Positions 55,828 through 59,824 of a stretch of DNA of 60,551 nt are shown here, piece after piece. The notes beneath the pieces are model-generated. The model saw only the letters and a list, made by a program, of their open reading frames with translations, made no database searches and had not been told where the DNA came from. Numbering within the stretch: the first letter of the stretch is position 1; the number at the start of each line of letters is the position of its first letter. The position numbers were made by a program, and so were the translations under genes. Location of the stretch: IMG/VR virus record IMGVR_UViG_3300036818_000059, positions 1 to 60,551 of that record; one strand, 5' to 3'. Source of the DNA: a virus.

Positions 55828-56718
55828 CGGCCAGCCTCCCCAGGATCGTTCGCCAGCATCTTCTCTACATCGCGAGGCCAGACACCCGCGTCTTCCTCCG
55901 CCTTGCGCCGACCCGACAGCCTCGTCAGCCAGTCGATGTAGCCGTCCAGCTTCCGTCTCGCGGCCAAGGCGTCCTTCAGTTCGCACTCGATCGCCTCCGG
56001 GGCCGCGTAGACATCGAAGCGGCATTCCTTCGTAGCTGATCGCAGCCTCTACGAACGCCACGGGAAGGTGGCCCGCGTCGTGCGTGGCGTCGTATCCCTC
56101 GGCCTCGATCTGCCTCTGCCGCTCGGCCGCGATCAGTTCGGCTCCCGTCAGTGCGGCCTCGTCGTCCGGCTGTGCCGCGATCTCCACCATCAGCGGCGGC
56201 GCGAAGTTGCCGAGGTACTTCACGGTGCCGTCGATGCGGCGTCGACCCTCATGGACAGTGACGGCATCGCCAGCATGAAGTGCGCCCGCGATCCACCGGC
56301 GCCGGATGCGTTCCGCCACGGCCCGCATGAGGGTCTTGTTCTGCTCGGGCACGTCCGCCCAGGGCTTCGCCGACGCCTCCCGCGTCTTGTATCCGAAGTC
56401 GGGAGCCAGGCGTTCGTAGGTCTCGTGGAACGCGCGGGCCACGTCCTCAGCGGTCGGCGTCTCGTCCGAGGCCGGCACTGTGGAACGCAGCTCGGCCACG
56501 CGCGAGTCCGGCTGTGCCGCTGGGGCAGCGGCAGGCTCGTCGTCGTAGCCACCCACCGCGTCCAACAGCTCGTGGTAGCCGGGCAGGGCCTGGTCGTGGT
56601 CGCCGTCGTACAGGTACGTCTCGGCGATGTCCCGGATCTTGTCGCGGTCCACGGGCTGTGCCTCCGCTCGTTCGGTTGGGTTGGGGTTGGCGGTGGGGCC
56701 AGCCGGGTCGGGGATCAT
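55824..56718 (-). pseudogene. Frameshifted paralogue of the RRQ-E-HDD phage family
   Basis: From ATG 56718 (4-nt overlap with the methyltransferase) the frame encodes AETYLYDGDHDQALPGYHEL, ARAFHETYERLAPDFGYKTR and the family block ELIAAERQRQIEAEGYDATH, then AISYEG. After about 56028 good coding continues only in the +1 frame (ECRFDVYAAPEAIECELKDA, KLDGYIDWLTRLSGRRKAEE), ending at 55824. Skipping one G in GAAGGAATG restores S-Y-E-E-C-R-F. Mutation, sequencing error or recoding are all possible. Confidence 0.55.
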
Positions 56719-57890
56719 GCCGCGGTCCTCTCGATCAGTTCGGGCAACATCGCCCGGTACGCCAACAGGGCTTGGGCCGGCACGACGCCGTTGCCCAGCA
56801 GATGCAGTTGCTCGTTGCGGGACAGGCCGGCGACTTCGGTGACCCATCCGGCGGGCAGGCCCATCAGCCACTCCACGAACACGGGGTTCAACTGGCGTCC
56901 GCCTCGTCGTCCCACAACGACAGGGTCAGGTGCGGGTCGACCGAGGACGAGCTCCCAGCGGCGGACGGCGGGCCCGTACGGTCCCCATGCCAGCTCGGGG
57001 GCAGCTCGTCCCAGCTCGTGAACTCCCTCGGCAGGATGCCGTTCGCGATCTCCACCGCTTGGTCCAGCGACGGCGACGAGCGACTGGTCGGACTGAGCGC
57101 CGCACCGCGACTGGTCCGGGTCGCCGACACTCGATGGGTTGGCAACAGAGGGTCGGCCGGCACTGCGGTCCCATCCCAGACCTCCCGGGCGATCCCCGTC
57201 AGCAGCAGCTCGTCCGAGCGGGCCCCGCCCCGTGCCGCTCTCGTCCCATCCGCATCGGCCACCGTCGTGGTCGGCAGGAGTTTCGCGATCGCGTCGTCGA
57301 GGTTCCGCTTGCCCTGCGCAAAACGCTTCGCCGCCGTCTTGCTCGACATGCTCCTCGATGAGTGATCCCCATCCCTCGCCTGCGCGGTCGGCAGCAACGG
57401 CGAGGATGAAGCACCGCTCGCGACGGTGGGGAGCACCAGCGTCGGACGCTCGTACACAGCGCCATTCCGCATCGAACCCCAGCGCGGCCAGGTCACCGGC
57501 GGCTCGGGCAAGCTCTCCGGCCACAACGATGCGACTGACGTTTTCCAGGAGCACGATGCGGGGTCGTAGGTCGCGAATGGCTCGCGCGACCGCGGGCCAG
57601 ATAGCTCGCTCATCCTCGGTTCCCTTCTGCTTGCCGGCTGAGCTGAATGGCTGGCAGGGCCATCCCGCGGTGAGCCAGTCGATCCGCCCGGCCCACGGCG
57701 CCCAGTCGGCTGTGGTGATGTCTCCGACGTTCGGCACGCCGGGCCAGTGGGCGTCGAGGACGCGGCAGGCGGGCTGGTACTGCTCGCCGTGCACGACGAC
57801 GTCTCCGCCGAGCAGCTCGCGTGCCGCCCGATCGAGGCCGCCGTAGCCACTGCAGAGCGACGCGCCGGCGAGGGTGTCGCTGTCGCTCAT
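56715..57890 (-). CDS. DNA cytosine-5 methyltransferase
   Basis: 391 aa, Dcm-type. Motif I LCSGYGGLD (residues 12-20), motif IV with the catalytic Cys GWPCQPFS (76-83), motif VI ENV (116-118), motif VIII RRERCF. After a long variable target-recognition region come WGPYGPAVRRWELVLGRPAP, LNPVFVEWLMGLPAGWVTE and NEQLHLLGNGVVPAQA (motifs IX-X). It would methylate phage DNA, protecting against restriction. No cognate nuclease is visible. Residues 93-334 overlap another gene in a different frame. Confidence 0.9.
   Translation of the reverse strand: MSDSDTLAGASLCSGYGGLDRAARELLGGDVVVHGEQYQPACRVLDAHWPGVPNVGDITTADWAPWAGRIDWLTAGWPCQPFSSAGKQKGTEDERAIWPAVARAIRDLRPRIVLLENVSRIVVAGELARAAGDLAALGFDAEWRCVRASDAGAPHRRERCFILAVAADRAGEGWGSLIEEHVEQDGGEAFCAGQAEPRRRDRETPADHDGGRCGWDESGTGRGPLGRAAADGDRPGGLGWDRSAGRPSVANPSSVGDPDQSRCGAQSDQSLVAVAGPSGGDRERHPAEGVHELGRAAPELAWGPYGPAVRRWELVLGRPAPDPVVVGRRGGRQLNPVFVEWLMGLPAGWVTEVAGLSRNEQLHLLGNGVVPAQALLAYRAMLPELIERTAA
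56888..57613 (-). CDS. Gene nested in the methyltransferase (REPFATYDP family)
   Basis: 241 aa from ATG 57613, with AAGGGA seven bases upstream, read in the +1 frame of the methyltransferase. The sequence MSELSGPRSREPFATYDPAS, TWPRWGSMRNGAVYERPTLV, ASGASSSPLLPTAQARDGD, LLPTTTVADADGTRAARGGA and RSDELLLTGIAREVW resembles a family found next to phage cytosine methyltransferases, with repeated LLPT blocks. Both frames look conserved, so this is likely true dual coding. Function unknown. Confidence 0.6.
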   Translation of the reverse strand: MSELSGPRSREPFATYDPASCSWKTSVASLWPESLPEPPVTWPRWGSMRNGAVYERPTLVLPTVASGASSSPLLPTAQARDGDHSSRSMSSKTAAKRFAQGKRNLDDAIAKLLPTTTVADADGTRAARGGARSDELLLTGIAREVWDGTAVPADPLLPTHRVSATRTSRGAALSPTSRSSPSLDQAVEIANGILPREFTSWDELPPSWHGDRTGPPSAAGSSSSVDPHLTLSLWDDEADAS

Positions 57891-57911
57891 CGGTCCTCCA
57901 GGTCCCGGGGT

Positions 57912-57940
57912 GTCCCGGCTCGGGGGTGGCGAGCCGGGAC
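57912..57940 (-). terminator. Hairpin cassette, copy A
   Basis: GTCCCGGCTCG (57912-57922) and CGAGCCGGGAC (57930-57940) form an 11-bp stem with a 7-nt loop. An identical hairpin with similar flanks is at 59258-59286. It lies between two leftward genes and probably terminates or processes transcripts. Confidence 0.6.
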
Positions 57941-57950
57941 GGGCGGGGGG

Positions 57951-58271
57951 TCAGGAGGTGGGCTCGGCGCGCAGTTGGCCAGCGGTGCGTTCGAGGTCGC
58001 CGATGATCTCCTCGACGTCCTGCGGCAGGTGGATGCCCAGATCCGCGAGCCGGTTGTCCAGGGCTCGCAGGCTGTCCGCCAAGCGCAGACGGTCGGCCGC
58101 GACGATCAGCGGGGCCGCTACGCGCACGGCCTCCATGATCAGACCCGAGACGTTGTCGTCCTCCAGCACGGATGCGTGGTAGTCGGCCTTGACCGCGGCG
58201 GCAATCCGGGCCAGCGGGATCGCCTCGGCGATCGCGCGCCCTGCCTCGTCCGGGATGGTGATCTCGCTCAT
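57951..58271 (-). CDS. Hypothetical protein, 106 aa
   Basis: ATG 58271 follows GAGGACCG. MSEITIPDEAGRAIAEAIPL, ARIAAAVKADYHASVLEDDN, RVAAPLIVAADRLRLADSLR, DLGIHLPQDVEEIIGDLER. Helical, acidic; the opening resembles other small actinophage proteins. Its start context (TCATCGGTCCTC) is reused by the methyltransferase gene. Unknown function. Confidence 0.55.
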   Translation of the reverse strand: MSEITIPDEAGRAIAEAIPLARIAAAVKADYHASVLEDDNVSGLIMEAVRVAAPLIVAADRLRLADSLRALDNRLADLGIHLPQDVEEIIGDLERTAGQLRAEPTS

Positions 58272-58684: not shown

Positions 58685-58701
58685 GATCGGGTTCCTTTCG
58701 C

Positions 58702-58885
58702 GGGGTGCCGCGCTCAGCGGTCGGCGGGGTGCCTCGTGCCCGGGGGAAGTCGGGCACGAGGCGGGTCGGTCACTTGCGCTTCGGGTCCTGCTTCTCCTGC
58801 TGCTTGCGGTTCCATTCCTGGGCGCCGCGCACGATGCCGTCGAACATCGGGTCGGGCTTGTCTTGCTTGGCCATGTCGGTCTCCT
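58702..58885. repeat. 184-bp duplicated unit, copy 1
   Basis: Matches 59641-59824 with only three differences that I can see. The unit includes a 12-bp hairpin (GCCTCGTGCCCG at 58731-58742 with CGGGCACGAGGC at 58751-58762) and the complete 34-codon gene with its ribosome site. The same opening GGGGTGCCGCGCTCAG also occurs at about 58290-58305. Confidence 0.9.
58770..58874 (-). CDS. Duplicated 34-aa miniprotein, copy 1
   Basis: ATG 58874 with GAGGAG a few bases upstream. MAKQDKPDPMFDGIVRGAQE then WNRKQQEKQDPKRK: a charged helix with a short hydrophobic face. A second copy (59709-59813) differs by Gln4 to Glu. Near-identical duplicates with a conserved ribosome site suggest the peptide is expressed. 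About 120 bases of the gap before the next gene (58886-59008) show only a doubtful 20-codon frame. Confidence 0.65.
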   Translation of the reverse strand: MAKQDKPDPMFDGIVRGAQEWNRKQQEKQDPKRK

Positions 58886-59197: not shown

Positions 59198-59257
59198 GGC
59201 GGTGATGCGGTAGACGTGCCACTGTGGTCATTCGGTCGATCCTCCAGGTCTCGGGGT

Positions 59258-59286
59258 GTCCCGGCTCGGGGGTGGCGAGCCGGGAC
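59258..59286 (-). terminator. Hairpin cassette, copy B
   Basis: GTCCCGGCTCG (59258-59268) and CGAGCCGGGAC (59276-59286), identical to the hairpin at 57912-57940, with flanks (CCTCCAGGTC upstream, GGGGGTCAGG downstream) also shared. Confidence 0.6.
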
Positions 59287-59296
59287 GGGCAGGGGG

Positions 59297-59611
59297 TCAG
59301 GGGGTGGCGGGCGTGATGGTCGACTTCCAATGAGGCATCGCGGCGTGGCGTCCGTCCCACAGGACGTAGGCCATGTCGTCCTTGAATCTGGTGATCGTTC
59401 CGATCGCGGTGGTCTGCCCGACGTGCGTGACTCGGTCTCCGACCGCCAGCTCGCGCGGGGTGTCGTTGTCGATGTGCGGTTTGTCGGCGCCCTCGCCGCC
59501 GCCCAGCAGGCCCTCGTCGCGCAGTGCTTGAGCGATGTCCTGCGCCAGTCCGTCGTGGCTCGGCATATAGGTCTCGATGATGCGTGCGGCCTTGTCGGTG
59601 TTGTCGGTCAT
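59297..59611 (-). CDS. Hypothetical protein, 104 aa
   Basis: ATG 59611 has GAGAGGA upstream. The N-terminal 35 residues are helical (ARIIETYMPSHDGLAQDIAQ). The C-terminal half is a small beta barrel (RELAVGDRVTHVGQTTAIGT, ITRFKDDMAYVLWDGRHAAM) of the KOW/SH3 type, often nucleic-acid or protein binding. Function unknown. Confidence 0.55.
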   Translation of the reverse strand: MTDNTDKAARIIETYMPSHDGLAQDIAQALRDEGLLGGGEGADKPHIDNDTPRELAVGDRVTHVGQTTAIGTITRFKDDMAYVLWDGRHAAMPHWKSTITPATP

Positions 59612-59640
59612 CGGGGTGTCCTCTCGGGTCGGCAGGGTTC

Positions 59641-59824
59641 GGGGTGCCGCGCTCAGCGGGCGGCGGGGTGCCTCGTGCCCGGGGGAAGTCAGGCACGAGG
59701 CGGGTCGGTCACTTGCGCTTCGGGTCCTGCTTCTCCTGCTGCTTGCGGTTCCATTCCTGGGCGCCGCGCACGATGCCGTCGAACATCGGGTCGGGCTTGT
59801 CTTCCTTGGCCATGTCGGTCTCCT
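59641..59824. repeat. 184-bp duplicated unit, copy 2
   Basis: Near-identical to 58702-58885, offset 939 bases. The hairpin GCCTCGTGCCCG (59670-59681) with CAGGCACGAGGC (59690-59701) carries one change that weakens the stem. Recent duplication is implied. Confidence 0.9.
59709..59813 (-). CDS. Duplicated 34-aa miniprotein, copy 2
   Basis: ATG 59813 with GGAGAC upstream (AAGGAGA). MAKEDKPDPMFDGIVRGAQE then WNRKQQEKQDPKRK. Only residue 4 differs from copy 1. Followed leftward by its own copy of the hairpin. Confidence 0.65.
   Translation of the reverse strand: MAKEDKPDPMFDGIVRGAQEWNRKQQEKQDPKRK

Follow-up and report, generated by a model that had tools for sequence, protein, structure and literature searches.

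A conserved gene overprinted on a phage C5-cytosine methyltransferase gene probably encodes a second subunit of the enzyme

M.EcoHK31I is a two-polypeptide C5-cytosine methyltransferase in which motifs I to VIII and X lie on the large subunit and motif IX lies on the small subunit, and its predicted target-recognition domain is also on the large subunit (PMC3404938). M.AquI (recognition sequence CYCGRG), a split C5-cytosine methyltransferase made up of an alpha and a beta chain, carries motifs IX and X on the smaller chain (PMC3404938). The ShiLan domain is a hidden, out-of-frame HNH endonuclease within a phage methylase (PMC11855218). Here we describe a viral locus in which one gene (B) is nested in another frame of a C5-cytosine methyltransferase gene (A). 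The locus lies in a stretch of 60,551 nucleotides, IMG/VR record IMGVR_UViG_3300036818_000059, that was analysed whole and that we refer to as the window. Judged from sequence, and with a probability that we put at about 0.8, B is a selected overlapping gene, translated from its own ATG, whose product is the second subunit of a C5-cytosine methyltransferase composed of two chains.

Table 1. Positions of genes A and B and of their motifs in the window.
Feature	Position	Strand	Remarks
Gene A, C5-cytosine DNA methyltransferase	56715..57890	minus	391 aa; motifs I-VIII, IX and X in one frame
Gene B, nested wholly inside A	56888..57613	minus	241 aa; frame +1 of A; ATG at 57613, TGA at 56888
B ribosome-binding region (AGAAGGGAACCGAGG ahead of ATG)	57614..57630	minus	Also encodes QKGTE of A's KQKGTEDER
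A motif IV PCQ, catalytic Cys79	57651..57659	minus	P78 and C79 invariant; upstream of B
A motif VI ENV	57537..57545	minus	E116 and N117 invariant; frame +1 reading is part of B's SWKTS
A motif VIII RxR (R157, R159)	57414..57422	minus	Invariant; B overlaps
A residues 184-299, in-frame variable region	56994..57341	minus	Predicted (AlphaFold) to be disordered, with no target-recognition fold in the model
A motif IX region LNPVFVEWLMGLPAGW	56844..56891	minus	Starts where B ends
A motif X, G366 N367	56790..56795	minus	Invariant in alignment
B signature 1, FATYDPASCSW, B residues 13-23	57545..57577	minus	Conserved columns G6, A14, D17, W23, T25
B signature 2, TWPRWGSMRNG, B residues 41-51	57461..57493	minus	G46 and G51 invariant; P43 nearly so

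Gene A has the motif IV PC, motif VI ENV, motif VIII RxR and motif X GN of a C5-cytosine methyltransferase, together with an HhaI-like large domain, and its catalytic residues are invariant in a 23-sequence alignment. The match to Pfam DNA_methylase (E=1.7e-33) bears out the original prediction that this is a methyltransferase with the expected motifs, and A also matches PHROG 363 (E=1.2e-58). AlphaFold modelled the large domain and the tail with high confidence, and Foldseek matched A to M.HhaI over ~166 columns (E=7.6e-13). Residues 184-299, located between motifs VIII and IX at the place expected for a folded target-recognition domain, and across most of which B encodes its LLPT modules, reached a pLDDT of only ~35 with the 23-sequence alignment, although a missing confident model is not proof that a domain is absent. 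The start of A follows a good ribosome-binding site (CTGGAGGACCG-ATG). The TGA of A shares bases with the start codon of the following gene (ATGA), which places A in an ordinary phage operon. Scans for promoters and terminators gave no result.

Two direct repeats lie near the locus. One, of 72 nt (57890-57961 and 59236-59307; 94% identical), covers the region upstream of A, including its ribosome-binding site, and is perhaps a repeated intergenic control element. The other, of 185 nt (58701-58885 and 59640-59824; 98% identical), has its copies 939 bases apart in predicted minus-strand frames and is a recent duplication of a small-gene segment.

Gene B was first proposed from the letters of this DNA, and its coordinates, its frame, its motifs and the AAGGGA ahead of it are all as originally described. 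Its extent corresponds to A codons 93-334. The original prediction placed the overlap in the target-recognition region, which is indeed covered, but B also extends over the catalytic region of motifs VI to VIII. The B protein contains SREPFATYDPASCSW, SMRNGAVYERP and three copies of LLPT. A mechanical reading of B's frame would begin at an upstream GTG and give 320 codons. We favor the ATG, which is formed by A's conserved D-E-R, as GAT-GAG, and has AAGGG 8 nt to its 5' side. This AAGGG encodes part of a K-G pair in A, and thus both of B's start signals are embedded in A coding sequence. At the other end, the TGA of B sits within the L-N codons that open A's motif IX (LNPVFVEWLMG). AlphaFold gave a low-confidence model of B (mean pLDDT of 55.7), in which two hairpins, at residues 14-25 (signature 1) and 46-55 (signature 2), are better supported. 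Searches by Foldseek and against PDB profiles, for which this low-confidence model was the structural query, returned no solved structure resembling B, and Pfam, NCBIfam and PADLOC gave nothing useful for B.

Comparison with phage proteins, the check suggested when B was proposed, gave a match of B residues 1-129 to PHROG 1008 (E=1.3e-13). The C-terminal part of the same family matches A's frame (A residues 273-388), and a search of the whole record with PHROG 1008 recovered both places, one in each frame; none of 14 control genomes matched it. B belongs to a family recognized by FATYDPxSSSWRT, TWPRxGxMRNG and LLPTP/WPTP modules in frame +1 of a C5-cytosine methyltransferase. With tblastn, we found B in 105 phage records. 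Of 219 loci confirmed in a scan of viruses, 80 were retained, and in all 80, found via B, A could be anchored by pattern matching in the same relative frame (A in frame -1 to B). Likewise, all 32 matches to B in bacterial genomes overlap A in this frame; they come from Actinomycetota, Pseudomonadota, Planctomycetota, Gemmatimonadota, Verrucomicrobiota and Spirochaetota, among others. The association with A is exclusive, in that B was not found away from A in any of the 80 kept viral and 32 bacterial-genome loci, and in loci retrieved through A alone, the B frame was present wherever A's overlap region exists. Altogether, the two-frame locus was seen in >150 related loci, viral and bacterial, although the database matches are related to one another and the counts are not counts of independent events.

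Existing annotations have captured B in pieces. Catdawg gp5/gp6 and ArV1 067a/067b are listed as paired methylases, and Diva_50 is labeled "g49 internal gene." In Rhodococcus phage ReT1v-2 (L118, 2257-2931), B is a hypothetical protein, only a short tail of A is called a DNA methyltransferase, and the complete A frame is unannotated. In what we call type-2 loci (L014, L008, L072 and similar ones), the B frame is open from near the start of A, and in many of them an ATG lies at position -336, counted from the conserved Trp of B. The true start of type-2 B is uncertain, and the overlap there may span nearly the whole of A.

The window contains many long spurious frames, and at 69-70% GC, the +1 frame stayed open in ~14 to 20% of resamplings of A with its own codon usage, so that an open frame alone is weak evidence for B. 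In a shuffle test, we exchanged synonymous codons of A without altering its protein and then compared the +1 frame with a profile built from 83 diverse B sequences, from which close relatives of the window's B had been excluded. The window's B scored 128.3 bits, compared with a mean of 36.6 and a maximum of 69.9 bits for 400 A-preserving permutations and a mean of 36.1 and a maximum of 71.4 bits for 400 codon-usage samples that preserved A; 15 other loci gave z values of 6.0 to 10.2. Neither the window nor the two further actinophage-type loci tested showed a B-frame excess upstream of the B start (z of 0.5 to 1.7), which implies that the constraint begins with B. In type-2 loci L014 and L110, the excess reaches upstream in most frames, and the start of B is less clear there. 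Within the overlap, frames other than that of B also exceeded the shuffles because the synonymous sites of A are frozen, and the shuffle test by itself therefore shows synonymous-site constraint only. That B is the cause of this constraint is indicated by the openness of its frame, by the periodicity of GC content and by its start codon.

With regard to openness, the overlap was open in B's frame in 83 of 86 nonredundant loci (GC contents of 35 to 73%; most of them retrieved through B), compared with 12.7 expected from A codon usage, and the +2 frame was open in 18 of the 86. The B frame was open also in AT-rich relatives, where two to five stops would be expected. As for periodicity, the third codon position is the richest in GC in GC-rich genomes. 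The GC contents at codon positions 1, 2 and 3 of A are 0.70, 0.58 and 0.89 upstream of B and 0.71, 0.45 and 0.86 downstream of it, but 0.84, 0.61 and 0.64 in the overlap, where the maximum moves to the first position of A, which is the third position of B. This shift holds both in the motif VI-VIII part and in the remainder of the overlap, and a similar one was found in most of 12 type-1 relatives. The start codon points the same way: at A's Asp, the start-making GAT, rather than GAC, was used in 12 of 12 GC-rich type-1 loci, compared with ~25% of the Asp codons in the same genes. In the large set, the ratio of third-position to first-position substitutions was 3.8 upstream and 1.4 in the overlap, a change that weaker constraint on A could also explain; near the window, pairwise position-specific substitutions were too few to decide.

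Taken together, these sequence comparisons argue that B is a genuine selected gene and not a chance frame. The proposal that ~240 codons encode two proteins at once is thus upheld by the shuffles with their upstream control, the openness in 86 loci, the GC periodicity and the conserved start. The original prediction had similar proteins encoded near phage methyltransferases; the link to methyltransferases stands, yet every relative examined overlaps the methyltransferase, in the same frame, instead of lying beside it. The original prediction counted two things as arguing against B, namely, a lack of homologues outside overlapping contexts and a lack of purifying selection on the nested frame. 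The former is what we found, as every B examined overlaps a methyltransferase, and the latter is clearly not the case.

The tail motifs of the methyltransferase move between the two frames. Among 138 distinct loci, the commonest arrangement has motif IX on B and motif X on A (62 loci); both motifs are on A in 25, including the window, and both are on B in 16, and our search patterns left the placement unassigned in 35. Motif IX is read in B's frame in most other phages and in A's frame in the window. The simplest explanation for motifs that trade places between two chains is that A and B make up one enzyme, and this is what they most likely do. Such an enzyme would arise if B were translated from the internal ATG at 57613 on the A message and bound to A. 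A would supply the SAM-binding, catalytic large domain and, here, tail motifs IX and X; B would supply beta-rich elements and LLPT modules, from which the small (target-recognition) domain, apparently lacking in A, would probably be built or completed. B probably provides the target-recognition part in trans, A's own segment being modelled as disordered; the placement of the M.EcoHK31I recognition domain on the large subunit disfavors this assignment. In mycobacteriophages L113, L107 and L122, LLPTP modules are read in A's frame, beyond the downstream end of B; those of the window are read in B's frame. The LLPTP repeat units appear to shift between frames and to vary in number.

B might instead be a real, translated protein that is not a methyltransferase subunit, such as a regulator, an anti-restriction protein or a host-directed protein for which the locus serves as a vehicle. 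A in the window has all of the catalytic motifs together with motifs IX and X and might work alone, no structural match gives B a function, and the out-of-frame HNH endonuclease in a phage methylase (PMC11855218) is a precedent. We nevertheless consider this unlikely, since B is never seen apart from A, since motifs IX and X on B in other phages tie it to the enzyme, and since B is neither an HNH gene nor an insertion and overlaps motifs VI to VIII. Slightly less probable again is that ribosomes enter B's frame from A by programmed frameshifting, to give an A-B fusion and no separate B. At loci such as Vash (L111) and Upyo (L120), where motifs IX and X are on B, a complete enzyme would be restored by a +1 shift past motif VIII. 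However, B is conserved over ~65 codons before the end of motif VIII, which would be useless to a fusion; its N terminus, its ATG and the purine stretch upstream are conserved; and A in the window already has motifs IX and X in frame. Finally, that B is a chance open frame whose resemblance across phages is a by-product of A's conserved protein, a reading encouraged by the resamplings that are stop-free in the overlap and by the window's wealth of spurious frames, is already refuted statistically and highly improbable, because B's score far exceeds every A-preserving shuffle, because B is open in AT-rich relatives despite the stops expected there, because GC periodicity in the overlap tracks B and not A, and because Escherichia coli dcm, a C5-cytosine methyltransferase outside this group, has many stops in its +1 frame and no B.

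It is rare for both frames of a long same-strand overlap to encode conserved proteins, and such overlaps are usually lineage specific. In the A/B pair, catalytic motifs common across C5-cytosine methyltransferases are encoded in one frame and another conserved family in the other. The pair is met repeatedly in viruses and in genomes from several bacterial phyla, with GC contents ranging from 35 to 73%. A search of one literature collection found no report of this overlap in phages, of the breadth of the family or of the swapping of tail motifs; new here are that breadth, the swapping of tail motifs between frames and the variant in which all motifs are kept on A. In automated annotation, usually one of the two frames is called and the other is lost, and some records retain only B, as a hypothetical protein. 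The locus is also a natural data set for the coevolution of two proteins on one DNA.

Preferring, as we do, B as a second subunit, we tentatively extend this reading, at somewhat less than even odds, to a large class of phage and prophage C5-cytosine methyltransferases. These would consist of two overprinted subunits with the recognition part provided in trans, by a gene that runs in another frame across the catalytic motifs of its partner, and recognition modules (LLPTP/WPTP) and tail motifs would swap chains by small changes of frame. If so, phages would gain a means to re-sort methylation specificity, and many phage "orphan" methyltransferases expressed from A alone could be inactive or misspecific because a subunit is missing.

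Among known systems, the phage family PHROG 1008 ("DNA methyltransferase") is matched at positions 61-178 by the window's B and at positions 214-324 by the window's A, whereas type-3 B matches positions 64-320 in a single chain; the N- and C-terminal parts of this family are thus in different reading frames in the window. The ShiLan domain resembles B in being a second coding frame within a phage DNA methylase gene, but it is a mobile endonuclease inserted into another methylase (gp65 of ShiLan), and B is neither an insertion nor an endonuclease and covers catalytic motifs. An HNH insertion of the ShiLan type was ruled out for B, which has no Pfam match and covers A's conserved motifs. The placement of motifs IX and X in M.AquI resembles that in type-3 loci (Vash, Upyo and Catdawg); however, the M.AquI split is sequential and runs through the variable region, whereas B overlaps motifs VI to VIII of A in another frame.

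M.EcoHK31I (YGGCCR; Lee et al. 1995, cited in PMC3404938) has the motif layout that is commonest here (L014 type, 62 loci). Motif IX is on the small chain in L014 and many other loci, but in the window it is on A (56891-56844, after the B stop), so that the window's B is without the motif by which the small chain of M.EcoHK31I is defined. Reportedly, the coding sequence of that small subunit likewise lies in an alternative frame within that of the large subunit, and its product is said to be 176 amino acids long, close to the length of the L014 B. By analogy, the window locus would work like M.EcoHK31I, and we do not class it as a member of that type.
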